Source: a bacterium
Lineage (GTDB): Bacteria > SZUA-182 > DTGQ01 > JAFGSM01
Reading direction: 5' to 3'
Assembly: GCA_016934595.1 (NCBI GenBank)
Contig: JAFGSM010000061.1
Coordinates: 1-34,749 of the forward strand
DNA: 34,749 bases
Shown here one piece after another: positions 36 to 25,079 of the stretch; positions within the stretch are counted from its first letter, which is position 1; each line of letters opens with the position of its first letter. A model generated the notes under the pieces. It worked only from the letters and a program-made list of their open reading frames with translations, was not told the origin of the DNA and ran no database searches. The position numbers were made by a program, and so were the translations under genes.

Positions 36-1502
36 GTGAAACATAAGGTGAACAGATTTTTGTTATTCTTTGCAGTCAGTATTTTTATGATAAGCATTTA
101 TATGAGTTTTTGCCCTGCTATTTCTATGGCAGGCGAGCCGGTTTGGGTTAAGGCTGTGCAATACAACCCTGGGGCGGATATGGTGATGACACCTGCCCAG
201 CCATTAGATTTGGCAAGGATGAAGACCCTCTACAGCCCAGGAACAAATTATACATCTTCTGATGCGCTTGGCATTATAGTAGGTCTTGCTGAAAGGCTGG
301 CTTTTAGGCAGAGACCAGATGGAGCCTGGACTGAGGACCTTCTGCCTGGCATAACGCCGGAAAATATCGCAGGTCCTGTGGGCCTCGGCATGTTGAGGGC
401 CTATAACCTGACTCAAAACGCCTTTGGAATGAATGTAAACGGGGTAACCGTAGATCCGGACAAATATCTAAATTCCGCTGGCCTCGCGGCAAAATACCTG
501 CTTGATCCTAACAGGGTTCTCCCGCTTGGCGCCAATGATTGTATATTTTTGTATTGCCGGGCCTATTGGATGGATCCTGCGCGCAACCCCCAGAATATAC
601 CAGAATATGCAAGTATTAAAGCAGCCCTGGAGGGCTATATTGGCTCGCAAGCCTCTGCTCCCGCTTTGTATAATGAGTATAAGAATGTTGAGCCTCAGCT
701 TATGCACTATTGGGCGGCCAACATGATCGAGGCATGCCAGCTCTTTGGATCTCAGGTACTGAAAACATTTGCAGATCAAATGGTAGCTGTGGCATTGGGC
801 AGCTATTATTCCGAGCCTGGCAATGTCGGCGTTTTTCTTTTTGATACGACTTACAAATATGTAAGGACGATGAGCCATGCACGTATGATAGAGGTGCTTG
901 CCAAATACTATGGTGGAAGTACGGTCGGCGGTTATAGCATAGATTCGGTTGTCTCAAAGGGCGCTGAGTTTCTTAAGGATGTGCAGCACATCACTGATCC
1001 AAACAATCCGTTTACCGGAGCATTTCGTGCTGGAGCACAGATAAATTCCAGTGATGAAGTGCAGGCTTTCGACTCCATCCTTGTCCAGGATCAGGCATTT
1101 GCAGTGAGCGCAATGGCCTTTGCCAAACAGACGACCTATGCGAATTATCAAAATGACAAAGGTCCTTATTGGGGCGCAAAAACGCTTATTCAATTGGCTG
1201 TAAATGCTCAACCTACCGGTGGAAAACGTTATCTTGATGACGGAAAGGAATATGCCGAGGACAATGCAGAGGCGATATACGGATTTTATGCAAGCTGCCG
1301 TGAAGGCGATGTGGACAAAAGTGGCAAGGTCATGGCAGGCGATGCATTGAAGGCGCTCAAGGCCTCCGTAGGCCAGATAAATCTTATCGGACCAGAATTC
1401 GTGTCTGCCGACCGGAATGGAGACGGGGATATCCTTAGCGGAGATGCGGTTGATATTCTTAAACATTCTGTTGGCATTCCTGTAGCGGTGCCCAATAAAT
1501 GA
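36..1502 (+). CDS. Exported alpha-helical (possible terpenoid-cyclase/alpha-alpha toroid-like) protein with C-terminal type I dockerin
   Basis: ORF with N-terminal signal-peptide-like hydrophobic segment; 'RQRPDGAW' QW-like motif; C-terminus has two Ca-loop repeats 'GDVDKSGKVMAGDALKALKASVG' and 'ADRNGDGDILSGDAVDILKHSVG' typical of dockerins. Confidence 0.8.
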   Translation: MKHKVNRFLLFFAVSIFMISIYMSFCPAISMAGEPVWVKAVQYNPGADMVMTPAQPLDLARMKTLYSPGTNYTSSDALGIIVGLAERLAFRQRPDGAWTEDLLPGITPENIAGPVGLGMLRAYNLTQNAFGMNVNGVTVDPDKYLNSAGLAAKYLLDPNRVLPLGANDCIFLYCRAYWMDPARNPQNIPEYASIKAALEGYIGSQASAPALYNEYKNVEPQLMHYWAANMIEACQLFGSQVLKTFADQMVAVALGSYYSEPGNVGVFLFDTTYKYVRTMSHARMIEVLAKYYGGSTVGGYSIDSVVSKGAEFLKDVQHITDPNNPFTGAFRAGAQINSSDEVQAFDSILVQDQAFAVSAMAFAKQTTYANYQNDKGPYWGAKTLIQLAVNAQPTGGKRYLDDGKEYAEDNAEAIYGFYASCREGDVDKSGKVMAGDALKALKASVGQINLIGPEFVSADRNGDGDILSGDAVDILKHSVGIPVAVPNK

Positions 1503-1588
1503 TTCTTCATATGGTCTATTCACATTGTATGATATTGAGATTTTATAGTTTATTATTTGCTTTAACATAATTTAAAGGGGGAGGTTCG

Positions 1589-2929
1589 ATGAAGATAAGA
1601 GAGTGTCGTAAGGGAAAGATAGGAACGATCCTGTATATGCTTGTGGGGTTTTTTGTCATATGCGGGATGGTATATTCTGTGCCTGCTAATGCGCAAGTAA
1701 TGCGAATCATCGCCGGTGAAACACTCGGGCAGGAATACCAAGCCAAAAAAGGCGAGCTTTTTGAGGTGCCCGTCAGGATCAATCCTGGCATTACATCCAT
1801 AGTTGACTATGCATATGATCTTAACGTCTATTATGACAATACGGTTCTTGAATGCACCGGATTCAGATATAATGGCGTACTTCGTGATACAGGAACGACC
1901 CAGTTTAGCGACAGCAATATAACAATTGCCTGGAATCCTTGGGATACAGGGGTTAATGCCTTTCATATGGGGGCTTGCAGCCTATACGCAAATAGCATTG
2001 CCGCTGGAGATTTGTTCAGGATACAGTTCAAGGTGCTAAGTGAAGACTCTACCGATATCAGGCCTTTTATTAATGATCCTAACGATCCAAGCAATGCGCT
2101 GTTCAAAGACTATGCTTTTTCAAGATGTACTTTTGTGAATTTGGCACAGGAAACAGTGGTGATTCCAGGCGGTATAGCCTCGCTGGATCCTAACACCTCT
2201 TTCGATCCCGAAACCTTTGATCCGAATGCTGTACTTCCTCAAGGGGTTATAGAGCTGACTTTGGGCGAAGATCCGAATAACAGCGATGTAGATGCCGCTA
2301 TCGGCGCCAATGTTGACATCTACGCCTTTTTTGGAAAAACAGGCAATAATGCCGCTGGATATAAAGATTCGACAGGGAGACCTCTTGGTCCAAACACCAG
2401 GCTTACGGCTACACTGCAGTGTTTTACAGGATCTGATTATGTAGACCCGAATGGTTTAATTGATCCGGCGAATTCTTTTATTGTCAATTTGAGGTTTACC
2501 GATCCTGCTGGAGTGGAGTATGAATATAACGATCCAAATGGCGGCACGATCTATCTGGAAGTCCCATTGCATCTCAATTTGCAGCTATATCCGCCGACTA
2601 CCGATCCTGCATCGATAAGGGACAATGTCCTTATAGATGCAAGCGATGAAAAAGATGACGTAGGAAGATATGCGATATATTTTATTGGCATAAATGGTAA
2701 TTTTGATCCAAATGATCCTTTTATTCCCAACAGCAACGGCAGAAAGGGCGAAAGCCTGAATGTCGCCTGGAGAGGGACACCCACTGACGGTATATGGATA
2801 GCAAAGATTGAAACCACACACGCCAGCGTATGGTTTAATGCTGTTGGCCCGGAAGGATTGCCAGAGACCCAAACAACCCCTGTCAAAGAAGACCAAGGGC
2901 TTTGTTTTATTGGCGCTGTTGACAGGTGA
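1589..2929 (+). CDS. Exported cohesin-like domain protein, rich in Asp-Pro-Asn
   Basis: Signal peptide; N-terminal region 'GELFEVPVRINPGITSIVDYAYDLNVYYDNTVLECTGFRYNGVL...LFRIQFKVL' has the cohesin-like strand pattern; RBS gggggagg upstream of ATG 1589. Confidence 0.65.
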   Translation: MKIRECRKGKIGTILYMLVGFFVICGMVYSVPANAQVMRIIAGETLGQEYQAKKGELFEVPVRINPGITSIVDYAYDLNVYYDNTVLECTGFRYNGVLRDTGTTQFSDSNITIAWNPWDTGVNAFHMGACSLYANSIAAGDLFRIQFKVLSEDSTDIRPFINDPNDPSNALFKDYAFSRCTFVNLAQETVVIPGGIASLDPNTSFDPETFDPNAVLPQGVIELTLGEDPNNSDVDAAIGANVDIYAFFGKTGNNAAGYKDSTGRPLGPNTRLTATLQCFTGSDYVDPNGLIDPANSFIVNLRFTDPAGVEYEYNDPNGGTIYLEVPLHLNLQLYPPTTDPASIRDNVLIDASDEKDDVGRYAIYFIGINGNFDPNDPFIPNSNGRKGESLNVAWRGTPTDGIWIAKIETTHASVWFNAVGPEGLPETQTTPVKEDQGLCFIGAVDR

Positions 2930-3030
2930 TCCATTTGGTCGTTCGCTTTTTAGTTGTTATGAGAAAGGTGATTGGCTGAATAACAGGATTAAAGACGAAT
3001 AAGCCGATTATTATATCTTATAAGTGTGAT

Positions 3031-3066
3031 AAATAAAAAGGGGGGTAAAAGCCCCCCTTTTTATTT
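3031..3066. terminator. Strong bidirectional intrinsic terminator between convergent genes
   Basis: Perfect 15-bp stem AAATAAAAAGGGGGG / CCCCCCTTTTTATTT with loop TAAAAG; A-tract and T-tract on both sides. Confidence 0.9.
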
Positions 3067-3275
3067 AATCTCTAATGACACTCTGTTTTTGCCCTTTTTA
3101 TGTAATTCTTGAAAATATTGATAAAAATTGTTGTTTTGTCTAATCGGATATCTTGTTGAAAAAATGGCTTATCCTAAAAAAGCGCAAAAGTAGAAAGGAT
3201 ATATTCACTCCCCTTTTTTGGAATGGAAAAATTTATTGTTTTGATACCCATCAGCTTGCGGCGGTGTAGTTCATT

Positions 3276-4691
3276 TTATGGGCGATAGAGTATATATCCA
3301 TTCATATTCTCTATATGAAATCGGTCGCCGCTTTCATGGTCAAAAAAAAGAAAAGAGCTTTGCCATTTTGCGGATTTTGATTCCAAACGGCTTATAACGG
3401 CATCATTTATATTTTTCATATAAAACATGCGCATTGCTTGCCAGGAGTGAATCGTCTCATAAGGCTGCGGGTGGATGGTGATGAAATTTAAACCTGATTC
3501 TGCCTGTCCGGCGATCTCTGAGATTTGTTCCTCAACGCTGGATTTTAGCATGCAGCCCGGAAAAGCCCTGGAAAAACCTTTTCCATCAATATACATAAGA
3601 TAGCTTTGAAAGGAAGAAATCATAAAATTTATGCCCTCAGGCTGGCCGTTATTCCAATGTGTATCCAGCCAGATTGAATCATTGGGGTCAAATGCCCTCA
3701 AACGCTTTATATTTCCACCAGATTCGCCAAGATTTGTTAAAAATCCGAATGAATCATCATATCCATCATGCGGCAGGGCAGGGTACCCAAAAAGGTTAAT
3801 GCCTGTCTCGAAACGGGCCTTAATGCCGAATCCCTTCTTGTATATGCCAAAATCGCCATTGGGGTTTGTCACAATGATGTCAAGCAATAGACCGACTGGA
3901 AAGGCATCGTATGGCGCTTGAATTATTATAAGATTACTGGTTAGGTATATAATGTTGTCAGACAACCGGACGGATCCTATTACAGGAATCGGGACAGCGC
4001 CGGGATTTTTGCTAAAACCCTGGCCATATATGGAAACGATCATGGTTTCACTCGATGGGTCTTCAGTTAAATCAATGTTGTTGATTTGAAGATTCGGAAG
4101 AACCTCAAGCGATCCATTTTGGCAGACGGCGCACCTGAGCGAATTCCCGATGCTGTCTTTGAATAACATCTTGATCTCGGATATTGTTTTCCATACAGGA
4201 ATCTGTCTTTTGGTTGTGAAATTGAACAGCAGGAATGTCCCTGTGCCCTTGGTGGGGAAGTCTTGGCCTGTTACGCTGTCGAACCCGATGCCGCCGGCGA
4301 TATTGACCCTTCCTGGATATATTTCGTATGGATAAACGAAGGTATAGTTCTGTGTAAGCTGGGTAGTGTTCATTCCTGTATAGGTGAGGATATTGGGGTC
4401 ATATTCCAATGAGATATTCCATGAACAAAATCCGTCAGGATTGTTTTCTATCAAGTTGAAAGGCACGGTGTGGTTTGCATCAAGTGTAATTGTCCCGTTG
4501 GGGATGGAGAATCTAATCGCTGGGTGTGAAGAGCCGGGAAGCAGCATATTGAGCATGACGATAGTCGCTGCAATGGCAATAAAAAGGTTTTTGGGGGAGG
4601 CTATAGATCGAATGTATTCAGGATGATAATACATTAAAGATTTAAAAATATCCCCTGATGATAGATACTGAAAACATTTGAATATATTCAT
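3276..4691 (-). CDS. Exported cohesin-like domain + IPT/TIG-like domain protein
   Basis: 'FCSWNISLEYDPNILTYTGMNTTQLTQNYTFVYPYEIYPGRVNIAGGIGFDS...GTFLLFNFTTK' resembles cohesin; 'QINNIDLTEDPSSETMIVSIYGQGFSKNPG...IVTNPNGDFGIY' resembles IPT/TIG; N-terminal hydrophobic segment. Start codon uncertain. Confidence 0.6.
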   Translation of the reverse strand: MNIFKCFQYLSSGDIFKSLMYYHPEYIRSIASPKNLFIAIAATIVMLNMLLPGSSHPAIRFSIPNGTITLDANHTVPFNLIENNPDGFCSWNISLEYDPNILTYTGMNTTQLTQNYTFVYPYEIYPGRVNIAGGIGFDSVTGQDFPTKGTGTFLLFNFTTKRQIPVWKTISEIKMLFKDSIGNSLRCAVCQNGSLEVLPNLQINNIDLTEDPSSETMIVSIYGQGFSKNPGAVPIPVIGSVRLSDNIIYLTSNLIIIQAPYDAFPVGLLLDIIVTNPNGDFGIYKKGFGIKARFETGINLFGYPALPHDGYDDSFGFLTNLGESGGNIKRLRAFDPNDSIWLDTHWNNGQPEGINFMISSFQSYLMYIDGKGFSRAFPGCMLKSSVEEQISEIAGQAESGLNFITIHPQPYETIHSWQAMRMFYMKNINDAVISRLESKSAKWQSSFLFFDHESGDRFHIENMNGYILYRP

Positions 4692-5195
4692 ATTATAAAA
4701 TCATTATAAAAGATTCGAAAAGCAAAGTCTTAGATCGAATTTTGCAAGATATATTCCAATAATATTCCAATAATATAATAAAATATATCTTCGATTAAAT
4801 CAATTAATGATTCTACATTCATAAATTTTAAGACACAATATGGATAAGTCATATGATATTAAATGGCTATCGGGGACATAGGGTTTTGAATCTCAATGCA
4901 TTTGCCAGGAAAGCGGGTTATAGAAGGCGTAATGTGATTTTATCAAAATATCTAGTTTTGGGCATATAAAATGCTTTTAATATTTATGGAGAAAACCCTC
5001 ATGACCCTTTGGGCCGCCACGAAGGATGAAAATAGGATGCTATTTTCGAGACAAAAGGAAGAAAAGGCAATAATGATATATAAGGATTTGACATCGGATA
5101 TTAAATTGATTTAAAATATTAACATCAAATGTAAAGTAAAAGGATTTATAAAATCAAGCAAGAAGGGGGGGAGCAGAAAAGAGGAGGTTAGGAGT

Positions 5196-6392
5196 ATGTC
5201 TGGTAGGTTTAAGGTTGGGAGGGCAGTCTTTTTTTCAAGCGTTTTGCTTCTTATCATAGGATTTTTTATATGCAATCCTGTTGAGGCCAAATACGGGGTA
5301 TATCCTGAAAATATTTCATGGGCTTATGGAGACGACACTGTATCTATACCTATATATGTCGATGATATTGGAGGATTGGAGTCGTGGGACCTTATCATCA
5401 AATATGATACAGGCGTGTTGACATTCTTAAATGTGGAATATACGGATTTGTCAGCCCAATACTATTTGATAAATGCCAATTTTGACCCGGATGCCGAAGG
5501 GATAAAGGTTGGCGCAATCCAATATTTTGATAATGCAGGCGTAGTTCCCCCTCCGCCGGATGGAACGGGCGGAGCGCTCTTCAATGCAGTTTTTCAGGTT
5601 ACAGATCAGGTGCCTGCTGCTACGGATATCGCAATCGTGATAATCCCGGATACAGGCCCTCAGCTTCAGGCAATCGGCTCTTCAGGTGTATTTTATGGCG
5701 AGTCTGTCCATTATGATGTCTCATTTCTTGAAAAGTATATCGATATGCTGGAGGGCAATTCTTTTTATATATCCTTATATATCAATAGCACAAAAGACCT
5801 TCAATATTGGAACCTTGAGCTGGTTTACAATCCGGATATCCTGCAATTTAAAGATTATATATCATTGACATCATTGACAGACCAGTATGATAATCTGAAA
5901 TTCTATGAAGAAACCCCTGGCCTGGTAAAAGTAAGCGCTATCAAGCTTGATAAGGCCATGGAAGGGTCAGGCGTTTTTCTAAGGTTTTTTTTCCAGGCTA
6001 AAAATAAGGGGGCTTCTGATATAAGCCTTCAATATATTAATGACAAAGGGAACCAGTTTGGTCCTGTCACTGCGTCTACTGGCAGAGTCTGGGTAAACAA
6101 ACCGACAACGGTCACTTCTGCCGTGCCTGCATATTGGACATATCCTAAATTTTCGACGTACCCAGTGAACCTGATATATCCGACGTTTTCAACCAATTTA
6201 AGGTTTCCTATATATATGCCATATTCGGTGTATCCTGGAAGTTTATCGTATATCTCATATCCAACCATATACTCTATGTTTCAGAGGTTTTACGGGTTGC
6301 CGTCATATTCTTTCTTGTCTCAGCAGTATTTATATCAAAACTATAACCCTTTTCGTTTTGGCGGAATCAATCCGTTCTGGTATTTTAGATAG
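5196..6392 (+). CDS. Exported protein with two cohesin-like domains and a Tyr/Pro-rich repetitive C-terminal tail
   Basis: Signal peptide; 'VSIPIYVDDIGGLESWDLIIKYDTGVLTFLNVEYTDLS...' and 'FYISLYINSTKDLQYWNLELVYNPDILQFKDYISLTSL...GVFLRFFFQAKN' are two cohesin-like repeats; RBS gaggagg-type upstream. Confidence 0.7.
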   Translation: MSGRFKVGRAVFFSSVLLLIIGFFICNPVEAKYGVYPENISWAYGDDTVSIPIYVDDIGGLESWDLIIKYDTGVLTFLNVEYTDLSAQYYLINANFDPDAEGIKVGAIQYFDNAGVVPPPPDGTGGALFNAVFQVTDQVPAATDIAIVIIPDTGPQLQAIGSSGVFYGESVHYDVSFLEKYIDMLEGNSFYISLYINSTKDLQYWNLELVYNPDILQFKDYISLTSLTDQYDNLKFYEETPGLVKVSAIKLDKAMEGSGVFLRFFFQAKNKGASDISLQYINDKGNQFGPVTASTGRVWVNKPTTVTSAVPAYWTYPKFSTYPVNLIYPTFSTNLRFPIYMPYSVYPGSLSYISYPTIYSMFQRFYGLPSYSFLSQQYLYQNYNPFRFGGINPFWYFR

Positions 6393-6518: not shown

Positions 6519-7166
6519 GTGACATATATGGCAGGCGATAGATGTGTGATTTGCGGCAAAAAGAGAGGTAAGCGGTTTTGCAGGGAACAAAAGGGGTTGA
6601 TATGCTCTATGTGTTGCGCAAAGATGATTTATGAACAGGGAGGTTGTCCTGAAGATTGTGTTTACTGGAAATCAAGCAGAAGTTATACAGAGCAAAAAAA
6701 CATCAGGGTTACGGCCACGGTTCCGGACAGCGTCCAAAAGACGGAATCGGAATTGATCGCCATTATGGAGATGGCTATTTATGATGTTTTAAAAAAGGAT
6801 GTTTATTACGAAGACAATGATATACTTCGGGGAACGGAAAGGAAGATCGAGGCTTTGAAACATCCTGAAAGGGGACATGATGTTCTGCTCAACCGTATTG
6901 GAGTGGTAGAATCCGGGCTGGACGAGGTTATCAAGAGGGTCAAATTCGAGGCAGTCGATAGATTTTCTGACAGTCTGATAATGGATGCCTTAAGGACGTA
7001 TGCCATTTTTATTAAAAAGGCAGGCGATGTTAAAAGCGGAGGACATAAGTATATAGACGAACTAAAGGAAAGGGTGTCAAAATTTGAGGAGGGTTTAAAA
7101 AAAGATCGGTCAAAACAAAAAGATGCTTCTGGCTATCCGCTCATAACCCTCCCGTTCAGCCAATAG
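6519..7166 (+). CDS. Conserved hypothetical protein with N-terminal Cys-rich (putative Zn-binding) module
   Basis: 'RCVICGKKRGKRFCREQKGLICSMCCAKMIYEQGGCPEDCVYW' Cys pattern followed by a helical region. Confidence 0.7.
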   Translation: MTYMAGDRCVICGKKRGKRFCREQKGLICSMCCAKMIYEQGGCPEDCVYWKSSRSYTEQKNIRVTATVPDSVQKTESELIAIMEMAIYDVLKKDVYYEDNDILRGTERKIEALKHPERGHDVLLNRIGVVESGLDEVIKRVKFEAVDRFSDSLIMDALRTYAIFIKKAGDVKSGGHKYIDELKERVSKFEEGLKKDRSKQKDASGYPLITLPFSQ

Positions 7167-8105
7167 GTCAAGATGGATCGTTGAAAGGTCCTCCATCTGC
7201 AAATCCCTGGTGTTTTCTTCTTCGTATTTACGCAAGTCGATGGTCTTTAAATACCTTTTGCATTTCATGCATACAGCCACTCTGTCTTTTCCCTTGAGTT
7301 CTTTCTCGTCATCCAGATAAAAATATTTCAGCGTATCTTGATCTATATTTTGACAGCAAGGGCATTGGATTCTCGGAAAGGCCCATGAAGAATCACACCA
7401 TGAGCATATTAGATGCCTTTGGCCTTCTTCTCCTATGATGTAAGCCAGTTGAGGGCTTGATCCGCATACCGGACAATAGGACTGATGCCACGGTGGCAAC
7501 CCTTGCTGGCTTTGAAAAATGGGGTTCAATGCCTCGCCAAAGGAATGACCGAATGGCTTAAGACTGATCCAGATCAGGATAGTCAACAAAACTGGCGGGT
7601 TTTGTTCTTTCTCACGGGTATTATAATTTGCCTTTGCGTCATCATTATGCAAGCATTTTACGTTTGATGTCCGATTCAAATCTTTTCTTTCATCCGCGGC
7701 TGAATCAATAGTCAGTGTTTCTTTTTTATTGCAGGCAGCTTGGTTCAGGATCAGCCGGGTTAAACCCTGCATATCAAATTTATGATTATTGATCTTTTCA
7801 ACCAGTTCAAGGATAGCAGGTTTTAAAGCCGCTCGTTTTTGTGCAAAAAAAACCGATATCCCTTTGAGTATCTCAATAAATTGATTTATAGGCAGATCAA
7901 TCCTGGATTTGTCAAGGAGTGGAAATCCATCTTTCAGCTTTATCTTTAAAAGATCGGGGGTTGGTTTGAATGGCTCTATATCAATAGCAGGGCGTATCTG
8001 CTTCAACTCCGTAAGAAGTTCGCGTCCAAAGCTGAGTATCTCGCCAAGTTGCGGACATTTGCGTGTCAAGTCTTTAAATGGATCTGCGAGTTGGATATCG
8101 GACAT
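7110..8105 (-). CDS. fdhE: FdhE-like formate dehydrogenase accessory protein
   Basis: 'SYCPVCGSSPQLAYIIGEEGQRHLICSWCDSSWAFPRIQCPCCQNIDQDTLKYFYLDDEKE...VAVCMKCKRYLKTIDLR' matches FdhE-type double zinc-ribbon layout. Confidence 0.8.
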   Translation of the reverse strand: MSDIQLADPFKDLTRKCPQLGEILSFGRELLTELKQIRPAIDIEPFKPTPDLLKIKLKDGFPLLDKSRIDLPINQFIEILKGISVFFAQKRAALKPAILELVEKINNHKFDMQGLTRLILNQAACNKKETLTIDSAADERKDLNRTSNVKCLHNDDAKANYNTREKEQNPPVLLTILIWISLKPFGHSFGEALNPIFQSQQGLPPWHQSYCPVCGSSPQLAYIIGEEGQRHLICSWCDSSWAFPRIQCPCCQNIDQDTLKYFYLDDEKELKGKDRVAVCMKCKRYLKTIDLRKYEEENTRDLQMEDLSTIHLDLLAEREGYERIARSIFLF

Positions 8106-8345: not shown

Positions 8346-8396
8346 ATATACTAATTTTAAATATTTATACTAAAATCAAAGGTTTTGGGAGGTTTT

Positions 8397-10127
8397 TTGA
8401 ATTTAGATTTAACAGGAAACAGGTTAGGGGAGCTTCTTATCAAAAAAGGGCTCCTCAGTGAAGAGGACCTTGGAAAGGCCATGGAACAGAGGTCTGCCAC
8501 AACGGACAGACTTGGCAAAGTGCTCATCGGCCTTGGATTTATCTCCGAAGATGATCTGTATAAGACGCTTAGCGAGCAACTCAACATCCCGTATCTTCCT
8601 CAGTCTGAATACCCTGAAGCAACCATTCTGGATATAGACTTTTCCCTTAAATTCATGCGCCAGTACAGGTTTTTCCCATTAGAAATAAAGGACGGGACAC
8701 TGGCTATAGCCATGAGTGATCCATTGGATTTTGATACCATAGATGAGCTGAGGCTTTTCACAAAGCAGAAGATAAAGGTCTATATCTCAAAAGAGACGGA
8801 TGTGCTTACCGCCATTGAGCAAAGATACGGCGAAGGCACTACGACCATGGAGAAGATAATCGGAGATATGGCAGAGGAGGAGCTGCAGCTTCTCGCTTAC
8901 GGAGAAGAGGAGGATATAGATCATCTAAGGGATATGGCATCGGAGGCCCCTATAATAAAACTGGTCAATCTTTTTATATCAAGGGCCATTGAAGACGGTG
9001 CCAGCGATATACACATCGAGCCCTTCGAGGATAAACTACTTGTTAGATTGAGGATAGATGGGATTTTGCACGACATAGAATCCCCGCCAAAACGTATTCA
9101 GGCCGCCATTACATCCAGGGTAAAGATTATGGCCAATTTGAATATTGCAGAAAGGAGGCTGCCTCAGGATGGAAGGGTCAGGCTGAGGGTGGCGGGCAGA
9201 AAGATAGATCTCAGGGTATCCACTGTGCCCACGCTCTATGGAGAGAGTGTAGTTCTTAGGGTATTGGACAGGGAAAGCATCTTTCTCAGGCTTGAGGACC
9301 TTGGATTTCCTTCTGACAAGCTGGATGATTTTGAACGCCTTATTCACAAGCCTCATGGGATCATTCTGGTTACAGGACCTACAGGCAGCGGAAAAACCAC
9401 GACCCTTTATGCCGCATTGGAGAAGATCAACTCTCCTGACAAAAAGATAATCACGGTTGAAGACCCTGTTGAGTACCAGTTGAGCGGGGTTAATCAGATT
9501 CAGGTCAATCCGAAGATAGGCCTAACGTTTGCCAATGGATTGAGGTCGATAGTCCGTCAGGACCCTGACATCATGATGGTCGGAGAGATAAGAGACAGGG
9601 AAACGGCAGAGATATCCATCCAATCGGCCTTGACAGGGCATCTTGTCTTTTCAACACTTCACACTAACGACGCTCCAAGCGCAATAACAAGGCTTCTCGA
9701 TATGGGTGTTGAGGGCTATCTGGTATCTTCATGCCTGGAAGGCATATTGGCCCAAAGGCTTGTAAGGGTGATCTGCAAAAGCTGTAAACAACCTGTCATA
9801 CCGGACAAAAAGGCGCTGGAGGAGATGGGCATAAAGGCGAGGGAGATGAGGGTCGCCTATCGCGGCAAGGGATGCGATGTATGCAAAAATACAGGATATC
9901 ATGGCCGTACCGGCATATTTGAGTTCATGACGATAACGGATCCTGTTAGAAACTTGATATTGGAGAAGACAGGGTCAAGCATCGTTAGGCAGAAAGCCAT
10001 TCAAATGGGGCTTAAGCCTTTAAGAGAGGATGGCTGGGACAAGGTAAAACAAGGTGTCACGACCATCGAGGAGGTCCTCAGGGTGACCCGCGAAGAGGAA
10101 GTGGCCGGGCTTATGGAGGGATCATAG
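8397..10127 (+). CDS. gspE: Type II secretion system ATPase GspE
   Basis: Walker A 'GPTGSGKTTTLYAAL', Asp box, 'GEIRDRETAEISIQSALTGHLVFSTLHTNDAPSAITRL', tetra-Cys 'CKSCK...CDVCKNTGYHGRTGIFE'. TTG 8397 follows GGGAGG; ORF track starts at 8385. Confidence 0.95.
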   Translation: MNLDLTGNRLGELLIKKGLLSEEDLGKAMEQRSATTDRLGKVLIGLGFISEDDLYKTLSEQLNIPYLPQSEYPEATILDIDFSLKFMRQYRFFPLEIKDGTLAIAMSDPLDFDTIDELRLFTKQKIKVYISKETDVLTAIEQRYGEGTTTMEKIIGDMAEEELQLLAYGEEEDIDHLRDMASEAPIIKLVNLFISRAIEDGASDIHIEPFEDKLLVRLRIDGILHDIESPPKRIQAAITSRVKIMANLNIAERRLPQDGRVRLRVAGRKIDLRVSTVPTLYGESVVLRVLDRESIFLRLEDLGFPSDKLDDFERLIHKPHGIILVTGPTGSGKTTTLYAALEKINSPDKKIITVEDPVEYQLSGVNQIQVNPKIGLTFANGLRSIVRQDPDIMMVGEIRDRETAEISIQSALTGHLVFSTLHTNDAPSAITRLLDMGVEGYLVSSCLEGILAQRLVRVICKSCKQPVIPDKKALEEMGIKAREMRVAYRGKGCDVCKNTGYHGRTGIFEFMTITDPVRNLILEKTGSSIVRQKAIQMGLKPLREDGWDKVKQGVTTIEEVLRVTREEEVAGLMEGS

Positions 10128-10133
10128 AAGGAA

Positions 10134-11357
10134 ATGGCGGTTTTTGTGTATAAGGCGTCTGACAGCTCCGGGAAAATAATAACAGGCAGTATGGAAGCCA
10201 AGGACAAGGCTATGGTTATAAACCGGTTGCAGTCATCCTCCTATTTCCCTATAAAGGTAGAACAGGGGACGCAGACGCATGCATCTTTCGTTGAACGTGT
10301 CAAGGGAAAACGGGTATTTGAAAGGGTAACCAGCAAGGATATTTTGAGTTTTACCCAGCAGCTTGCCACATTGACGGGCTCTTCCATACCTCTTGACAGA
10401 AGCCTTGCAACTCTCAAGGAACTGGCGGAGAAAGAAAAACTTGCCTCAATTATAGACGACATTCATAAAAACGTACATGGAGGAAGCCACTTTGCCGATG
10501 CGCTGGCCCAGCATCCCAAATACTTTAGCAAGCTGTATATCAATATGGTAAAGGCAGGCGAGGCAGGAGGCGTGCTGGAGACGGTTCTGGCAAGGCTTGC
10601 GGAATTTCTGGAAAGCTCTCAGGAGATGAGGGATAATATTGTCAGCGCCCTTATATATCCGATCCTGCTAACCCTTGTAGGCGGGATCGCTGTCGCCATA
10701 TTGCTGATCTTTGTCGTGCCAAAATTTAAACTCATATTTATGGACATGGGCCAGGCCATGCCGATTCCTACACAGATATTGCTGGGTTTTAGCCAGGCCA
10801 TAGTGGATTACTGGTGGTTGATTCTTGGTGTTTTAGGTGTAGGATATTATATAATAAGACGCTATATAGATTCGCCCAGGGGCAAATGGAGATGGGACAG
10901 GATGAAGTTAAGAATGCCCGTCTTTGGCGCTCTGGTGCAGAAGATAGAGATTTCACGTTTCACAAGGACTTTGGGCACATTGATACAAAGCGGGGTGCCC
11001 ATTTTGCAGTCTTTGGGAATTGTCAGGGATATCATTGGAAATGTAGTTGTTTCCAAGTCCATAAGCAGGGTTCAGAGCAGCATTAAGGAAGGGGAAAAGA
11101 TTTCTGAGCCCCTCAAACAAAGCGGGATATTCCCTCCGCTTGCTGTTCACATGATTGATGTAGGGGAAGAAACTGGGCAACTGGAGAATATGATGTTCAA
11201 GGTCGCCGACACATTTGATGTCGATGTGAGAAATGGCATAAAAAGGCTGGTCGGCCTTTTGGAGCCGGTGCTCATACTGCTTATGGGGATTATCGTGGGA
11301 TTCATTGTAGTTTCCATGCTCCTGGCCATATTCAGCGTCAATGAGATACCGCTTTGA
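10134..11357 (+). CDS. gspF: Type II secretion inner-membrane platform protein GspF
   Basis: 'MAVFVYKASDSSGKIITGSMEAKDK', 'FTQQLATLTGSSIPLDRSLATL', duplicated T2SSF domains and three TM segments. Confidence 0.95.
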   Translation: MAVFVYKASDSSGKIITGSMEAKDKAMVINRLQSSSYFPIKVEQGTQTHASFVERVKGKRVFERVTSKDILSFTQQLATLTGSSIPLDRSLATLKELAEKEKLASIIDDIHKNVHGGSHFADALAQHPKYFSKLYINMVKAGEAGGVLETVLARLAEFLESSQEMRDNIVSALIYPILLTLVGGIAVAILLIFVVPKFKLIFMDMGQAMPIPTQILLGFSQAIVDYWWLILGVLGVGYYIIRRYIDSPRGKWRWDRMKLRMPVFGALVQKIEISRFTRTLGTLIQSGVPILQSLGIVRDIIGNVVVSKSISRVQSSIKEGEKISEPLKQSGIFPPLAVHMIDVGEETGQLENMMFKVADTFDVDVRNGIKRLVGLLEPVLILLMGIIVGFIVVSMLLAIFSVNEIPL

Positions 11358-11383
11358 CAAAAACCTTAACGAGAGGGATCTTT

Positions 11384-11848
11384 ATGAAAAGAAAAATATG
11401 GGATGATTCGTCACTGCTTTGTCAGAGGGGTTTTACTCTGATAGAACTGCTTGTGGTTATGATTATAATCAGCATGCTGGCGGCCCTTGTCGGTCCAAGG
11501 GTTTTCAAGAAATTGGGCAAGGCTAAGATGCAGGCCGCAGAGGGGCAGATTCATCTTTTTGAAATGGCCCTTGACACATATCGACTTGATACAGGCCATT
11601 ACCCTGAAAGACTGGAGGATCTGGTAAACAGGCCAGGCGGATCGGATTTCTGGGATGGGCCGTATTTGAAAAAAGGTATACCCAAGGACCCCTGGGGGAA
11701 TGATTACCATTACGCAAAATCAGGGGAAGAGTATGTGCTTCAATCTTATGGCGCGGATGGTCAGCCGGGCGGAGAAGGCGAAAACGCAGATATCCCAAAA
11801 GGTGATGATATGCAAACCAGGACGGTGGTTTCACCGGGAGAGTATTGA
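11384..11848 (+). CDS. gspG: Major pseudopilin GspG
   Basis: 'CQRG|FTLIELLVVMIIISMLAALVGPRV', 'DTYRLDTGHYPERLEDLVNRP', 'WDGPYLKKGIPKDPWGNDYHY'. ATG 11384 preceded by gagaggg; ORF track opens at 11354. Confidence 0.95.
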   Translation: MKRKIWDDSSLLCQRGFTLIELLVVMIIISMLAALVGPRVFKKLGKAKMQAAEGQIHLFEMALDTYRLDTGHYPERLEDLVNRPGGSDFWDGPYLKKGIPKDPWGNDYHYAKSGEEYVLQSYGADGQPGGEGENADIPKGDDMQTRTVVSPGEY

Positions 11849-11857
11849 CGCCTGTAT

Positions 11858-12490
11858 ATGAGGTTTATCTCGAAAATAGCCTTTTATTTTCATCCAGCCC
11901 GGCGCAGCAAAACGGCAAGGGCGTTTGTTTTGGAGAATAATAACCCTCACGGGTTTACCCTGTTCGAGATAATTGTCGTTATGGGGATCATTGCCATTGT
12001 GGCTGCCCTCATTGTGCCGAGGGTTGGAAACACCATTTACAATATGAGGCTTCGTTCGGCCGTTCGTCAGTGTTCGGCAGTTTTGAGATATACGAGAAGC
12101 ATGGCGATAACCACCCAAAAAGAACAAAGGGTCAGTTTTTTTATCAAGGGCGATCCTGAGGAAAAGGATTATTACAATTATAACAGGGTAACCAGGGATT
12201 CAAGCGGTCAATCCGGAGGGGAAGCTTATGATATAGACGAGGCAGGCGGTCCTGACAGCCTGAAGCATGAGACAAGAAAGGTGGAGATGGATTCTTCTAT
12301 ATCCTTGAGATGGAGGGATGCTCCGGATAAGGATTGGAAAGAGGAAGGCAGGTTTGAGGTCATCTTTTCCCAAAGGGGCATTGCCTCGGGGGGAGAAATA
12401 AGGTTTGCCCTCTTTGAGGGGAAAAGGGATTACATTTTGAGTGTAGATCCGGTGACAGGGAGGGCAAAAATCCTTGCAGGAGAGGGATAG
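11858..12490 (+). CDS. gspH: Minor pseudopilin GspH
   Basis: Prepilin motif 'NPHG|FTLFEIIVVMGIIAIVAALIVPRV' and operon position. Confidence 0.85.
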   Translation: MRFISKIAFYFHPARRSKTARAFVLENNNPHGFTLFEIIVVMGIIAIVAALIVPRVGNTIYNMRLRSAVRQCSAVLRYTRSMAITTQKEQRVSFFIKGDPEEKDYYNYNRVTRDSSGQSGGEAYDIDEAGGPDSLKHETRKVEMDSSISLRWRDAPDKDWKEEGRFEVIFSQRGIASGGEIRFALFEGKRDYILSVDPVTGRAKILAGEG

Positions 12491-12495
12491 TTGCT

Positions 12496-13032
12496 TTGCT
12501 TATTAGGTTTGTAAGAAAACCCTTTATGGGCCTTTGGCTGGCGATAAAGGATAAAGATGCACGAAAGGGATTTTTTTTAAACAAAGAATGGCGCAGGGGT
12601 TTTACACTTCTTGAGATAATGGTGGCGCTTGCGATAATGTCCATAGCCCTTGTTACGGTTATGCAGCTTTTTTCCGGGTCTCTACGCTCGGCCAAGGTGT
12701 CTTATGATTATTCTCTGGCAGTTATAGGCGCAAAAACCAAGATGGAGGAAGCCCTGGCAGCCAAAAACATGGAAGATTTTGATGATCTCGCAAAAAGCGG
12801 CGAGTTTGATAATGATCTGCTAAATGGTTATCATTGGGAGATCATCGGGCCTGAGCCTTATGAAGAGATGCTGCCTGAAGGCTTGAGGACGGATATCGAT
12901 AAAGAAAAAGGGCCTGTCGCCGATTTGCCTTATAAATTATACCAGATCGATGTTAAGGTCAAATGGAATGTCGGCGACAAGGAAAAAGAAGTGGGTTTTA
13001 CAACGCTTAAGATGCTGGAGGAAAGGGATTAG
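12496..13032 (+). CDS. gspI: Minor pseudopilin GspI
   Basis: 'WRRG|FTLLEIMVALAIMSIALVTVMQLFSGSLRSAKVSYDYSLAVIGAKTKMEEAL' and operon position. Confidence 0.85.
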   Translation: MLIRFVRKPFMGLWLAIKDKDARKGFFLNKEWRRGFTLLEIMVALAIMSIALVTVMQLFSGSLRSAKVSYDYSLAVIGAKTKMEEALAAKNMEDFDDLAKSGEFDNDLLNGYHWEIIGPEPYEEMLPEGLRTDIDKEKGPVADLPYKLYQIDVKVKWNVGDKEKEVGFTTLKMLEERD

Positions 13033-13798
13033 AGGCCGTATCGGAAGCATAAAGAGGGAAGCAGGTTTTACCCTGCTTGAATTGGTGATATCCGTAACAA
13101 TCCTTGCCCTCATCCTCGGCGTGATCCTTGGCGCGATGCGTTTGGGAAGCAGGTCCTGGGAGGTTGAGGAAAAGAGGGTGGAGAGGCTGCAGAGGATGAG
13201 GGTCACGTATGATATCATCTCGGAAGATATCAAATCCGTTTTGTGTAATGTAAAGAAAAGTATTTGTCCTGGAGGCAGCGGTTGCAGACATATAGCCCAT
13301 ATGTTTATCGGCGAAAATGACAGGATAAAATTCGTGTCTGCAAATCCCGGCATCGGCGCAAATCTTAGCAGGAGCAGATACAGGGTGGCAAGTTATTATC
13401 TGGGCCAGGACTATAATACGGAATATGAAGGGGTTGTCCTTGAAGAGAGCAAATGGCTCTTCCCTGATTTTTTCCGTTTTGACTTCGTATGCGATATATG
13501 CGATTCCGAGTCAAGCGAGTTTGAAAGCGAGTCGAATCTATATGTCATCTATCCGGATGTGACAGAGCTGACTTTTCAGTATTATGGAACCAGAAACGGC
13601 GAGTCTGAACCTGATTGGTATGATACATGGAATTCCCTGGAAGACCTTTGTTCCTGCGACCCTGGATATATACAGGAGCTATTGCCTGAAAAAGTAAGGA
13701 TAAGGATGCTCAGGCCGCCTATTAAAGGCCGGAAGGCGGAAGAAGAGCCCGAAGAAATTGTCATTGAGGTATATATAAGGTGCGGACAGGGAACATAA
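12950..13798 (+). CDS. gspJ: Minor pseudopilin GspJ (start uncertain, probably downstream of 12950)
   Basis: 'KREAG|FTLLELVISVTILALILGVILGAMRLGSRSWEVEEKR' and operon position. Confidence 0.85.
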   Translation: MLRSNGMSATRKKKWVLQRLRCWRKGIRGRIGSIKREAGFTLLELVISVTILALILGVILGAMRLGSRSWEVEEKRVERLQRMRVTYDIISEDIKSVLCNVKKSICPGGSGCRHIAHMFIGENDRIKFVSANPGIGANLSRSRYRVASYYLGQDYNTEYEGVVLEESKWLFPDFFRFDFVCDICDSESSEFESESNLYVIYPDVTELTFQYYGTRNGESEPDWYDTWNSLEDLCSCDPGYIQELLPEKVRIRMLRPPIKGRKAEEEPEEIVIEVYIRCGQGT

Positions 13799-14838
13799 CA
13801 ACAATTATTTTCGGGGCAGTGATTATATTGACCTCATGTTACCTTTTTGGTCATTCCTGCGAAGGCCGGAACCCAGGATTTACAGATGAAAGAGGTGTCG
13901 CGCTGATGATGATTTTGTGGGTCTTGATCCTTTTGGATATAATTGTGCTTCAGTTTGCTTCATCGATGAGGACGGAGGTGGAAATCACCAGAAATTTCAG
14001 GGACAGCATTGAGTCTTATTATCTGGCAATGGCTGGCATCGAGATGGCGAAGTTTGAATTAAAATATGTGGGAAGCATCACAAGGACGCATGGCCCTGAT
14101 CCCAACAGCGGCGCAGTGGATTTCAGGATCGGCTCTCTGGACAGGGAAGAAAGCCCCCGTTTCGGGAGGCGGGTATCTATGGGACGAGGAAGATTTTCTT
14201 ACGAATACCACCCGAAGGATGCAAAATATGATCTGAATTTTCTGACAGGACCAGGAAATGAGGCGAAGCTTAAGGAGGTTCTTGTAGAATGCGGGGTGGA
14301 ACCAGAAAGCCCGGAATTGAGCGATATCTCAAGATCGATTATAGACTGGAGGGACGCGGATCACGATCTGTCAGGGCCTGACATAGGCGCTGAGGATGAT
14401 TGGTATAAGGACAACTGGCAGGGTTATGAATGCAAAGATGATATGTTCTACAGCGTTGACGAATTGGCTCTCATCAGGGGCTTAAGACTTGAAGAAGGGG
14501 ACACCGGGGATGAGATAAAAGAGAAAAAGGCTCTGCTAAATCGTATCTATGAAAAAGTGGATGCCCACCCTTTTGACAATAGATTGATACCTCCTCATAG
14601 AGTCCCCAATCCTATCTGGGATCCAAATCGTGACACCCCTATTATGAATAAAAGATCGGAATATTATGAGGTGATATCCACCGGTTGGGTCAAAGGGGGT
14701 ATTGCACAGAGGAAGATCAAGGCCGGATTCAAGATAAAGGGGAGTGAAAACATACAGTTTATTTCATGGACTGACAATTATATACCGCTTGAGGATTTTG
14801 ACCCGAATCAGGGCAATGCAGATTCGGATACGATTTAG
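13780..14838 (+). CDS. gspK: Minor pseudopilin GspK
   Basis: 'DERG|VALMMILWVLILLDIIVLQFASSMRTEVEITRNFRDSIESYYLAMAGIEMA' and 'SIIDWRDADHD...YKD...YSVDELALIRGL'; no Glu at +5, as usual for GspK. Confidence 0.92.
   Translation: MRTGNITTIIFGAVIILTSCYLFGHSCEGRNPGFTDERGVALMMILWVLILLDIIVLQFASSMRTEVEITRNFRDSIESYYLAMAGIEMAKFELKYVGSITRTHGPDPNSGAVDFRIGSLDREESPRFGRRVSMGRGRFSYEYHPKDAKYDLNFLTGPGNEAKLKEVLVECGVEPESPELSDISRSIIDWRDADHDLSGPDIGAEDDWYKDNWQGYECKDDMFYSVDELALIRGLRLEEGDTGDEIKEKKALLNRIYEKVDAHPFDNRLIPPHRVPNPIWDPNRDTPIMNKRSEYYEVISTGWVKGGIAQRKIKAGFKIKGSENIQFISWTDNYIPLEDFDPNQGNADSDTI
13850..13890 (+). repeat. 41-bp palindromic repeat, copy 1 (inside gspK leader)
   Basis: gtcattcctgcgaaggccggaacccaggatttacagatgaa; matches copies at 29768-29808 (reverse) and 34191-34231. 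Confidence 0.9.
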
Positions 14839-14859
14839 AGTTTTTTTAAAGAGGAGAGG

Positions 14860-16395
14860 ATGTTTTTATTCCAGCAAAGTTTAGGGATAGATTTCAGGGA
14901 GGATACACTCCGTCTGGTTTTATTGGGCAAGACCATTAAAGGCACAATCCTGGTGGATCACCTGATAAAAAGATACCCGAACCTGGCTGATAAGCCTAGG
15001 GAAGGGGAGGCAATCGATGAGCTGGTGGCAGACCTGAATGCCTTTTTTTCTGACCGTAGCCGTCCTTCGGAGGTGATTTTAGGCATTCCGAGGCAGAAGG
15101 TTATACTCAGAGAGATACACTTGCCTGCCCTTGAACGGGAGGAGTTAAAAGAGATCATCACCTTTGAGATTGAGAAACATATACCATTGCCTTCCCAGGA
15201 AATATATTATGACTATCAAACAATGGAAAAGGTTTCAGAATCTGAAAATAGGATAATGCTGGGTTTGATCAAAAAGGAGGATATGGATTTTTATCTTAAT
15301 ATCCTTGAGAGGGCTCAGCTAATTCCCACGCTGGCTACACCCCTGTCCTATGTCCTAAAAGATTGCCCAGGCTGCAATCATTTTGCCGGTCAAGACCTTG
15401 GCGCCATGGTGGATATCGGAGAAAAAGAGATTGAGATTGACCTGCTTCAGGGCAGCAGCCTTGTCTTCAGCAGGAGTTTATCCATTAAAGATGAGGGATT
15501 GGATGAAGATTCTGCCATGACAAACAGAGAGCCTTCTTCAAAGGATGAAGAAGAAGGTTTAATGGATAAAAAGACGAGGGCTATCGGAACTGGGCTGCTT
15601 GGCATTGTCAAACAGATGTTCCGGACAATAAAGCATCCTGTGGATGAAGGGCTTGCAAGGATTGTTTTAACAGGCATGGGCGCATATGATTTACATTTGT
15701 CGGATTTTCTTCATGAAAGCTCGGGTATAGATGTTTACATACCTAATCCCTTCCATGGATTGACGGAAAAAAGTATATCAGGCCGCAAGGCATCCGCTCT
15801 CGCAATGGCCACAGGCCTGGCTGTAAAGGGGTTAAAGGAGAGTTTCACAGACCTGAACCTTCTTCCCGTCGAGATGAGGGTAAGGCGGACATCGCACGCA
15901 TTCTCTTTTGCCGTGATATTATTGTCCCTGCTTTTTTTATTGCTAACGGCTACGGCTTATACGGGTTTTGGAAAGTCTGGCTGGTTTTATCTTCCAAAGA
16001 GATTAAAGCTCGAAAGGGTTGTTAATACATCCAAGCAATTGCAGGATCAGGTGCGTGATATCAGGATAGTTTCCCAAAGGATCGATGAAACCTCCAAGAA
16101 GATAGACGAGATCCGTACTTTGATGAAAAAACGCGTCAGCAAGCTTGAAATATTGCAGGAACTGAGCGCGATTATACCTGAAAGCGTCTGGCTGGACAAG
16201 GCCGACATAGCAAACGACAAGATTGAAATAAACGGTTATGCGGATGCCTCCTCCAGTTTGATCGGCATCATGGAGGACTCCCCTTTGCTTGAGAATGTCA
16301 TCTTTCCATCGACCATAACAAAGAGGCCTGGAGAAAAGGAGAGGTTCAGGATAATCGCCAATATCCAGAGGGGGCTGACCGAGAATGGGAAATAG
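14860..16395 (+). CDS. gspL: GspL-like protein with PilM-like (actin fold) and PilN-like parts
   Basis: 'SLGIDFREDTLRLVLLGK', 'ITFEIEKHIPLPSQEIYYDYQTM', TM segment, then 'ILQELSAIIPESVWLDKADIANDKIEINGYADASSSLIGIMEDS' PilN/GspL C-terminal ferredoxin-like pattern. Confidence 0.85.
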   Translation: MFLFQQSLGIDFREDTLRLVLLGKTIKGTILVDHLIKRYPNLADKPREGEAIDELVADLNAFFSDRSRPSEVILGIPRQKVILREIHLPALEREELKEIITFEIEKHIPLPSQEIYYDYQTMEKVSESENRIMLGLIKKEDMDFYLNILERAQLIPTLATPLSYVLKDCPGCNHFAGQDLGAMVDIGEKEIEIDLLQGSSLVFSRSLSIKDEGLDEDSAMTNREPSSKDEEEGLMDKKTRAIGTGLLGIVKQMFRTIKHPVDEGLARIVLTGMGAYDLHLSDFLHESSGIDVYIPNPFHGLTEKSISGRKASALAMATGLAVKGLKESFTDLNLLPVEMRVRRTSHAFSFAVILLSLLFLLLTATAYTGFGKSGWFYLPKRLKLERVVNTSKQLQDQVRDIRIVSQRIDETSKKIDEIRTLMKKRVSKLEILQELSAIIPESVWLDKADIANDKIEINGYADASSSLIGIMEDSPLLENVIFPSTITKRPGEKERFRIIANIQRGLTENGK

Positions 16396-16951
16396 CAAGG
16401 TAAAAAACCTGACATGGATTGCTCTGATTGGCGCGATGGGCATAGCGGCGTTTTATTTTGCCCTGGTCTACCCGTTTATTTTGAACAAAAGGGTAAATGA
16501 AAAGCTGGAAATAGAGGAGCAGAGGCTGGAGAATTACCTTCGAACGATCAGACAAAAGCCTGAAAAGGATGCGATGCTGGAGCATCTCATCCAAAGCGAG
16601 GAAAGATACCAGGATATGCTTATGGAACCCGACAAGCCTCCAGTGGTTGCAGCCAGGCTACAAAATACCCTTAAAGGGATGGCAGAGAATGAAGGGGTGA
16701 ATATCATCAGCGAAAAGCAATTGGCCATTTCAGAACAGGGGGCTTTTATAGAAGTGCCTGTTGAGATAACCCTAAGATGCAGCATAACAAAACTGACAAA
16801 TCTGATCTATGCCATAGAAGATTATCAAAGATTTCTTGATATATCTAAATTAAACATAAGGGTGGTAAATATAAGAAACCCTATTGATATAAGGGCGGAT
16901 ATGACAGTGTCCGGCTTTATACTCGCCAGAGGCATCTCGGAGGAGGGTTGA
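16385..16951 (+). CDS. gspM: GspM/PilO-like T2SS assembly protein
   Basis: Single N-terminal TM, coiled coil, then 'NEGVNIISEKQLAISEQGAFIEVPVEITLRCSITKLTNLIYAIEDYQRFLDISKLNIR'. Confidence 0.8.
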   Translation: MGNSKVKNLTWIALIGAMGIAAFYFALVYPFILNKRVNEKLEIEEQRLENYLRTIRQKPEKDAMLEHLIQSEERYQDMLMEPDKPPVVAARLQNTLKGMAENEGVNIISEKQLAISEQGAFIEVPVEITLRCSITKLTNLIYAIEDYQRFLDISKLNIRVVNIRNPIDIRADMTVSGFILARGISEEG

Positions 16952-17958
16952 TGTTTCGTAAAATCGTTTGGATCAATATCGGCCTTTTTGTTATAGTTGT
17001 TTTACTTTCATATAACCTTTATACACTTTGGTCCAGGATCATGGAAGATATGAAGGCCCCTTCCGTCCAGGTCAACATTGCCGAAAGCCCTGAAAGAACT
17101 TCGGAAGATGAAGAGAAGGAAGAGGTATTTGATTACAAACCCTCTTCGAGGATGAGTTATTCTTCCATTATTGAAAAGGATCTTTTCAGACCTGAGAGGG
17201 AGGAGTGGCAACCGCCTCCGCCTCCAGAGGAGGAAGATGTTGATATAAAACAAATCTCTCCCTATCCACAGTTTCCAGGTCAAGGCATGCCTCAGCCAGA
17301 GATGAAGACCCCTACCGTACTGGGGATTATTTTGATCGGCGAGGCCAGAAGGTATGCTATCATGCAAGGATGGACGAGAGAAGATGTACAGGAGAGGACC
17401 AGGAAGATAAGGCTGGGGGATGGAACCATACGGGAAGTCCCTTTGCCGCCAGTTCCAGGCAAAGTAACTCAGGACAAGATAAAGGCATACCGGATCGGGG
17501 ATTATATCTCGGAGGAGCAGATAGTTGATATACTTCCGGAAAAGGTTGTGCTGGAGAAGAATGACGGGGAAAGATACGATGTCCTGCTAAGAGAGCAGGC
17601 CAAATTGGATTTATGGAAGGTCCAGGACCTGTCCCAGCAGTCGCCAGGCCAGGTTGGCCCAGGCGGTTTTGGACCGGGCCAGATGCCGGTTGTCCCTGAT
17701 CCAAGGGCATATCCTATCCCGCCGGGTATTCCGCCAGGGTTGCCGGCGTATCCCTATATTCCGGTTTATCCGCCTGTGCCTCCGCCTGGTTATATACCAC
17801 CTCAGGCGATTCAGCCGCCTCAGGGAGGGTTTAATCCGCCTTTGGCGCCTACACCGGGTCAAAGGCCTTCGCAGCAGTCTTTTCCGGGTCAGCCCGGATT
17901 GCCTCAGGGAAGGTTTCCTTTCATTCCAGGACAGCCTGTGCCCGGGGTTACTAATTGA
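16951..17958 (+). CDS. gspC: GspC/GspN (PilP-like) periplasmic protein with Pro-rich C-terminal tail
   Basis: N-terminal TM, 'SYSSIIEKDLFRPEREEW', 'PTVLGIILIGEARRYAIMQ...YRIGDYISEEQIVDILPEKVVLE' HR domain; the ATG overlaps the gspM stop. C versus N naming uncertain. Confidence 0.75.
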   Translation: MFRKIVWINIGLFVIVVLLSYNLYTLWSRIMEDMKAPSVQVNIAESPERTSEDEEKEEVFDYKPSSRMSYSSIIEKDLFRPEREEWQPPPPPEEEDVDIKQISPYPQFPGQGMPQPEMKTPTVLGIILIGEARRYAIMQGWTREDVQERTRKIRLGDGTIREVPLPPVPGKVTQDKIKAYRIGDYISEEQIVDILPEKVVLEKNDGERYDVLLREQAKLDLWKVQDLSQQSPGQVGPGGFGPGQMPVVPDPRAYPIPPGIPPGLPAYPYIPVYPPVPPPGYIPPQAIQPPQGGFNPPLAPTPGQRPSQQSFPGQPGLPQGRFPFIPGQPVPGVTN

Positions 17959-17981
17959 TGATATCAAACGGAGGAATTTCT

Positions 17982-22075
<4,094 letters not shown>

Positions 22076-24669: not shown

Positions 24670-24899
24670 ACTGTTTATTCTCCTTATTTTCTTATAGTTT
24701 TTTAAAAGCTGGCATTGACCCAGCCTGATGACCATTTGTAAAATGCGCAGCCGAATCTTTTTAAAAGAAATTTATTCTGGGACCAATGATCCTTAATATA
24801 TCTTATTTGTATTAAAAATGTAAAGGATTTATAATGACTTTTCTCGAATAATTATTTTTTTCTATAAAGAAATAAAGAGGTTACTGTTCGTTAAATTAA

Positions 24900-25079
24900 T
24901 ATACTCCATTCTCCTCAAAAAATGGCGCTGTTTTTAATAATGCAAAACCACATTTAAAGGAATTAAATATTGAAATCATAGATAATCCAGCTTTTGATAA
25001 AATTGGAAATCCTGTTATACTTTATCCGGTTGATGCAAATTCTATGGATTTTAATAATAAATATAAACCATTCCCATAG
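24900..25079 (+). pseudogene. Possible gene remnant: 59-codon open frame with no start codon
   Basis: Stop-to-stop frame YTPFSSKNGAVFNNAKPHLKELNIEIIDNPAFDKIGNPVILYPVDANSMDFNNKYKPFP*; ends TAG overlapping the GTG start of the next gene. Confidence 0.3.

Follow-up and report, generated by a model that had tools for sequence, protein, structure and literature searches.

A candidate non-cellulosomal cohesin/dockerin assembly locus upstream of a type II secretion operon in a bacterium of the SZUA-182 lineage

Cohesin and dockerin modules are already known from systems that are not cellulosomes. Non-cellulosomal cohesin/dockerin proteins occur in archaea, including ANME (PMC9012536), and such modules are reported for Archaeoglobus fulgidus (Peer et al. 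2009, as cited in PMC9012536). In freshwater Planctomycetes (Nemodlikiaceae), a hypothetical ‘planctosome’ was proposed (PMC6461901), and Ca. Stygibacter (Cloacimonadota) has a cellulosome-like complex with a dockerin-bearing C25 peptidase (PMC8542988). Non-cellulosomal genes of this kind are widespread, cohesins being found in 62 of 294 genomes sampled here, and their assembled products are mostly obscure. Among the open-licence papers that a full-text search brought up, titles and opening lines of abstracts describe no linkage between cohesin/dockerin modules and type II secretion (T2SS).

Here we analysed a stretch of 34,749 nucleotides (the window), which is an entire contig of a 3.16-Mb bacterial genome (G000; GTDB lineage Bacteria; SZUA-182; DTGQ01; JAFGSM01) whose order is represented by five genomes in our sample (G000 to G004). 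Only 35 bases precede ORF1, which starts at the contig edge (base 36), and any gene upstream of it is therefore cut off. The features used below are as follows.

36..1502, + strand: ORF1, exported helical protein with a C-terminal dockerin-type module (signal peptide, from sequence; order-restricted family)
1308..1478, + strand: dockerin module of ORF1 (loop pattern; PF00404 16.3 bits in the genome search)
1308-1343 and 1410-1445, + strand: putative Ca2+ loops of the ORF1 dockerin (pattern)
1589..2929, + strand: ORF2, exported cohesin protein, forming a conserved gene pair with ORF1 (PF00963, 33.9 bits)
1739-2053, + strand: cohesin of ORF2 (PF00963)
2426..2854, + strand: conserved C-terminal module of ORF2, residues 280-422 (blastp to the G002 and G004 orthologues, E about 3e-9)
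2903..2929, + strand: CFI-x5-stop tail at the ORF2 C-terminus (C, F and I invariant in 4/4 orthologues)
3276..4691, - strand: ORF3, exported cohesin and TIG-like protein (PF00963 and TIG profiles)
4152..4469, - strand: cohesin domain of ORF3 (profile; predicted fold matches solved cohesins)
5196..6392, + strand: ORF4, exported two-cohesin protein with an aromatic-rich C-terminal tail (PF00963, 40.2 bits, two stretches)
6108..6389, + strand: Y/F/W/P-rich tail of ORF4 (Y+F+W make up 31% of the final 80 residues)
6519..7166, + strand: small cysteine-rich protein, possible Zn-ribbon (precedes gspE in G000, G001 and G003)
7110..8105, - strand: antisense FdhE-like gene separating the T2SS operon from the cohesin genes (PF24859/PF24860)
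8385..20033, + strand: T2SS operon with gspE,F,G,H,I,J,K,L,M,C,D (conserved across the class)

Export signals are present on all four proteins, ORF1 to ORF4. A preliminary description of the window had proposed three neighbouring exported proteins with one, one and two cohesin domains, and this assignment holds. ORF2 and ORF4 exceed the PF00963 cut-off of 24.1 bits, and ORF3 is borderline, with 21.9 bits in hmmscan, just under the cut-off, and 24.8 bits in the genome search; the TIG match of ORF3 (15 bits) lies under its own cut-off. A profile of six domains (A3; four from the window and two from G003) retrieves solved cohesins in the PDB with a best E of 4.9e-12, and its E-values are biased for the window's own domains and for G003:C253, which sit in the profile. 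For the ORF3 cohesin, the weakest of the domains, an AF2 model with the other window cohesin domains as alignment reached pLDDT 70 and pTM 0.68, and 50 of the 50 PDB matches listed for it were cohesins (best E 1.3e-6). The ORF3 domain is thus predicted to adopt the jelly-roll beta-sandwich of cohesins, while the other domains are assigned by sequence alone. Because A3 finds solved cohesins and the ORF3 model matches cohesins, a lack of cohesin fold, named beforehand as fatal to the proposal, is not what we observe. Nothing in NCBIfam scored above cut-off for ORFs 1-4, and the domain search of the four proteins gave neither a carbohydrate-binding module nor a glycoside hydrolase, the latter as previously noted. 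Outside its cohesin, ORF3 resembles over residues 246-453 the C-terminal end of large proteins encoded on contig C238 of the same genome, where adjacent large genes (L024:4863-18949) have common C-terminal stretches that are 80-89% identical and include this module.

The proposed dockerin of ORF1 has two Ca2+ loops of F-hand type, each of about 12 residues (DVDKSGKVMAGD and DRNGDGDILSGD), spaced 34 residues apart, as expected of a type I dockerin; such a loop pair appeared in 0 of 20,000 shuffles of ORF1. Thus the two-repeat dockerin suggested in the preliminary description is borne out by its pattern and falls short by profile: PF00404 gives 12.3-16.3 bits against a curated cut-off of 22.9, and in phmmer against the PDB an EF-hand protein slightly outscores the nearest solved dockerin. 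Since the profile score is below cut-off and an EF-hand protein is ahead, the dockerin call rests on the pattern, the C-terminal position and the adjoining cohesin gene. The remainder of ORF1 is mostly helical in a low-confidence single-sequence AF2 model (pLDDT 40; fold search left out), its profile gave chance matches only in the PDB, and no enzyme domain was recognised in it, in line with the earlier view of a dockerin on a helical, non-enzymatic protein. An alpha-alpha toroid of the terpenoid cyclase type was considered for the helical part from QxxxGxW-like repeats seen by eye, and found no support in profiles.

We propose that the window encodes a cohesin/dockerin system for surface assembly, non-cellulosomal in kind and built from separate units, namely the ORF1-ORF2 pair, ORF3 and ORF4 as cohesin sockets, and ORF4 as the unit tied to the T2SS; to this reading we give about an even chance. 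ORF1 and ORF2 would leave the cytoplasm by Sec export, and most likely the ORF1 dockerin would dock onto the ORF2 cohesin in a Ca2+-dependent manner outside the inner membrane. The resulting non-covalent heterodimer could display the helical domain of ORF1 at the cell surface, with ORF2 as the presumed retained or anchoring partner, and ORF3 and ORF4 would supply additional sockets. Of the four proteins, ORF4 has the likeliest tie to the T2SS, either as a substrate or as a surface-retained acceptor.

The pairing of ORF1 and ORF2 is the best conserved part of this arrangement. The two genes are co-directional and 86 nt apart in the window, and they are probably co-transcribed. Gene order, strand and tight spacing are shared by 4/5 sampled genomes of the order (G000, G002, G003 and G004), with gaps elsewhere from 4 to about 98 nt or with overlapping genes. 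G002, G003 and G004 belong to another family within the order, and in each of them the ORF1 homologue has a gene for a small exported protein before it and a co-directional ORF2 homologue after it. A four-sequence profile of the ORF1 family found no member in 389 other genomes, among them the fifth member of the order, G001. In G003, the ORF1 homologue has one in-frame TGA (L019 about 7513-7515, G003:C43) in an otherwise conserved frame, compatible with an assembly error, a pseudogene or read-through alike.

In addition to its cohesin and conserved C-terminal module, ORF2 ends in the CFI-x5-stop tail, possibly a short C-terminal sorting tail; no known sorting-tail family in NCBIfam matched ORF2. 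The same ending is seen in large exported proteins at G000:C25:9973-9999, G000:C238:13090-13116 and G002:C46:1076-1102.

Both halves of the pair have changed in the relatives. Pfam does not recognise a cohesin in their ORF2 proteins, and comparing profiles with A3 identifies the N-terminal domain there as a remote cohesin (probability 91.6%, E 8e-7). The C-termini of their ORF1 proteins align to the window dockerin at 44-50% identity, and most Ca2+ ligands have been lost in three of the four orthologues; judged from these residues, they would have little or no affinity for Ca2+. Hence the genomes in which one half diverged are those in which the other did. That dockerin and cohesin both look canonical in the window, and degenerate in G002, G003 and G004, would fit co-divergence of binding partners, which from two clades is suggestive only.

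In the whole genome, three of the five cohesin genes found fall within the 4.8 kb of this locus (chance about 6e-5), at most two cohesins occur per protein among the matches, and a handful of dockerins was found, the others lying on contigs C23 and C25. One dockerin protein of this genome is a recognised enzyme, a gingipain-like C25 peptidase (L022:98-3112, G000:C25) with its dockerin between propeptide and catalytic domain. The order makes heavy use of these modules: we counted 20 cohesin and 21 dockerin places in G002 and 24 and 31 in G004, scattered over many contigs. In each of these two genomes, twelve cohesins have a co-directional dockerin directly after them, no more than 300 nt away, and the dyads examined in full are one chain, the cohesin-dockerin dyad usually being placed C-terminally in an exported protein. 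In the window, the modules are split in trans, with dockerin and cohesin on separate adjacent genes.

Such abundance brings forward a possible, though doubtful, account, in which the window holds part of a dispersed set of modular surface proteins whose partners are spread genome-wide, and chance gene order mostly explains why the four genes lie near one another and near the T2SS. The scatter of modules in the relatives and the further dockerins on C23 and C25 speak for it. Moreover, ORF1, ORF2, ORF4 and the gene at 6519-7166 are on the + strand and ORF3 and the FdhE-like gene on the opposite strand, so ORF1 to ORF4 are not one operon, and the whole block is conserved in no relative. Against this account stand the ORF1-ORF2 order kept in four genomes of two families, the clustering of three of five cohesin genes, and an ORF4 counterpart beside gspE in G003.

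The T2SS operon beginning about 2 kb past ORF4 is complete, as the preliminary description had it, with the gspC-M gene set at 8385-20033, its GspC being a weak match (19.1 bits). GspC (16948-17958, +) has a long proline/glycine/aromatic-rich C-terminal tail, of similar character in G002, G003 and G004. The link of this operon to cohesins was found in one relative. In G003, a 253-residue exported cohesin protein (L060:7767-8528; 33.5 bits) is located upstream of the 6519-7166 homologue, which is followed by gspE, i.e. the arrangement of the window minus the antisense FdhE-like gene. ORF4 and this protein are alike in position, domain and composition, with no blastp match at E 0.01. A cohesin gene on that side of gspE in G003 is expected by chance at about 0.004; this value and that for clustering presuppose uniform gene placement. 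Y, F, W and P are abundant in the tails of both proteins. Compared with a mean Y+F+W content of 9% over the tails of 289 proteins, ORF4 has 31%, and the five most aromatic tails in this set, taken from the fetched loci, include ORF4 and its G003 counterpart. Four of these five were flagged as cohesin by our own profile (Fisher p 5e-4), and in the fifth (L078:1943-5197) Pfam finds two cohesins. The loci were fetched largely for cohesins, for which the Fisher margins allow and which limits the generality of the association.

Beyond these two genomes, G001, G004, G005 and G006 showed no cohesin gene over the 6-12 kb read ahead of the T2SS operon, and in G002 only 1 kb upstream is visible. GspG occurs in 140 of the 294 genomes, and by eye, among the matches listed, cohesin and GspG are close on one contig only in G000 and G003. 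Since few genomes show the adjacency and other members of the order have no cohesin gene there, a T2SS-linked cohesin is a lineage feature at most, which would imply loss or movement in the other members, and the link would concern ORF4 and not the dockerin gene. Thus the preliminary idea of one compact set linked to the T2SS does not stand: the ORF1-ORF2 pair lies on contigs other than those of the T2SS in all three relatives having the pair (G002, G003 and G004), and ORF3 and the FdhE-like gene are reversed. What is kept of the neighbourhood is the pair and, more weakly, the ORF4-T2SS proximity in 2/5 members of the order. T2SS substrates are not known to share a recognisable signal, and for this reason the export route cannot be read from the sequence. 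A stronger version, in which the trans-split system is coupled to the T2SS, the aromatic-tailed cohesin serves as a surface-retained T2SS acceptor and the pair, drifting together, displays the order-restricted helical family, seems unlikely to us.

About 3 kb past the operon, at 23243-24735 (-), a rhomboid-family protein lies beside a rhombotarget lipoprotein (TIGR04179, 329.5 bits) that ends in a glycine-rich stretch, a hydrophobic segment and basic residues. In Vibrio, GlyGly-CTERM/rhombosortase acts with T2SS substrates (PMC6219818). Anchoring of the cohesin proteins by this system was considered because the window holds these two genes, and was set aside, as a GlyGly-type tail was not seen on ORF1-4. 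Further on, a 519-residue ORF (25079-26638, +) matches GidB/RsmG (residues 41-201) and SpoU rRNA methylase (373-506) and is apparently two RNA methyltransferases fused into one.

The C-terminal repeat of ORF1 could also be an EF-hand-like structural cap, with ORF1 and ORF2 cooperating otherwise, e.g. in a complex via other domains. The weak dockerin scores and the EF-hand protein slightly ahead in the PDB are consistent with this, as are the conservation of the segment despite the lost Ca2+ ligands and the failure of Pfam to see the relatives' ORF2 cohesin. However, both loops are canonical in the window copy and the gene partner ORF2 has a clear cohesin, and we regard a cap as improbable. A cellulosome-like scaffold, in which ORF4 as mini-scaffoldin would dock dockerin-bearing enzymes encoded elsewhere in the genome, could draw on the two cohesins of ORF4 and on the dockerin-bearing C25 peptidase, an enzyme kind shared with Ca. 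Stygibacter (PMC8542988), but is very improbable given the handful of dockerins with one on a recognised enzyme, four proteins with neither carbohydrate-binding module nor glycoside hydrolase, and an isoamylase at 27556-29733 that matched no cohesin or dockerin family; the cellulosomal combination of multi-cohesin scaffoldin, carbohydrate-binding module and dockerin-bearing glycoside hydrolases was not found.

Under the surface-assembly reading that we prefer, ORF1 and ORF2 provide a compact case, i.e. adjacent genes whose products should bind and whose orthologues have decayed in both halves, and a cohesin gene of ORF4 type keeps its place beside the secretion operon in two families. The locus would thereby offer a defined Gram-negative pair for measuring the cohesin/dockerin bond outside enzyme complexes.

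Compared with the clostridial type I cellulosome, the window set shares the module folds and the Ca2+ loop pattern, but has no long scaffoldin, cellulase or carbohydrate-binding module. Ca. Stygibacter is likewise Gram-negative and, as in this genome, has a C25 peptidase carrying a dockerin, whereas its long scaffoldin, which bears carbohydrate-binding modules and, at the C-terminus, a domain for surface attachment, is not seen in the window. The planctosome is also a hypothetical outer-membrane-tethered cohesin/dockerin assembly of Gram-negative cells that is not for cellulose; its model, however, recruits peptidases to an anchor protein, and ORF1 has no recognisable enzyme domain. The modules of Archaeoglobus and ANME resemble ours in being scattered on exported proteins, some with both modules, and in having no part in cellulose degradation; in contrast, the window, from a T2SS-bearing bacterium, has a dockerin gene and a cohesin gene conserved side by side, with a helical passenger restricted to the order. 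Non-cellulosomal cohesins and dockerins are thus already known, and the adjacent pair, split in trans and bearing a helical passenger, is a different arrangement of them.
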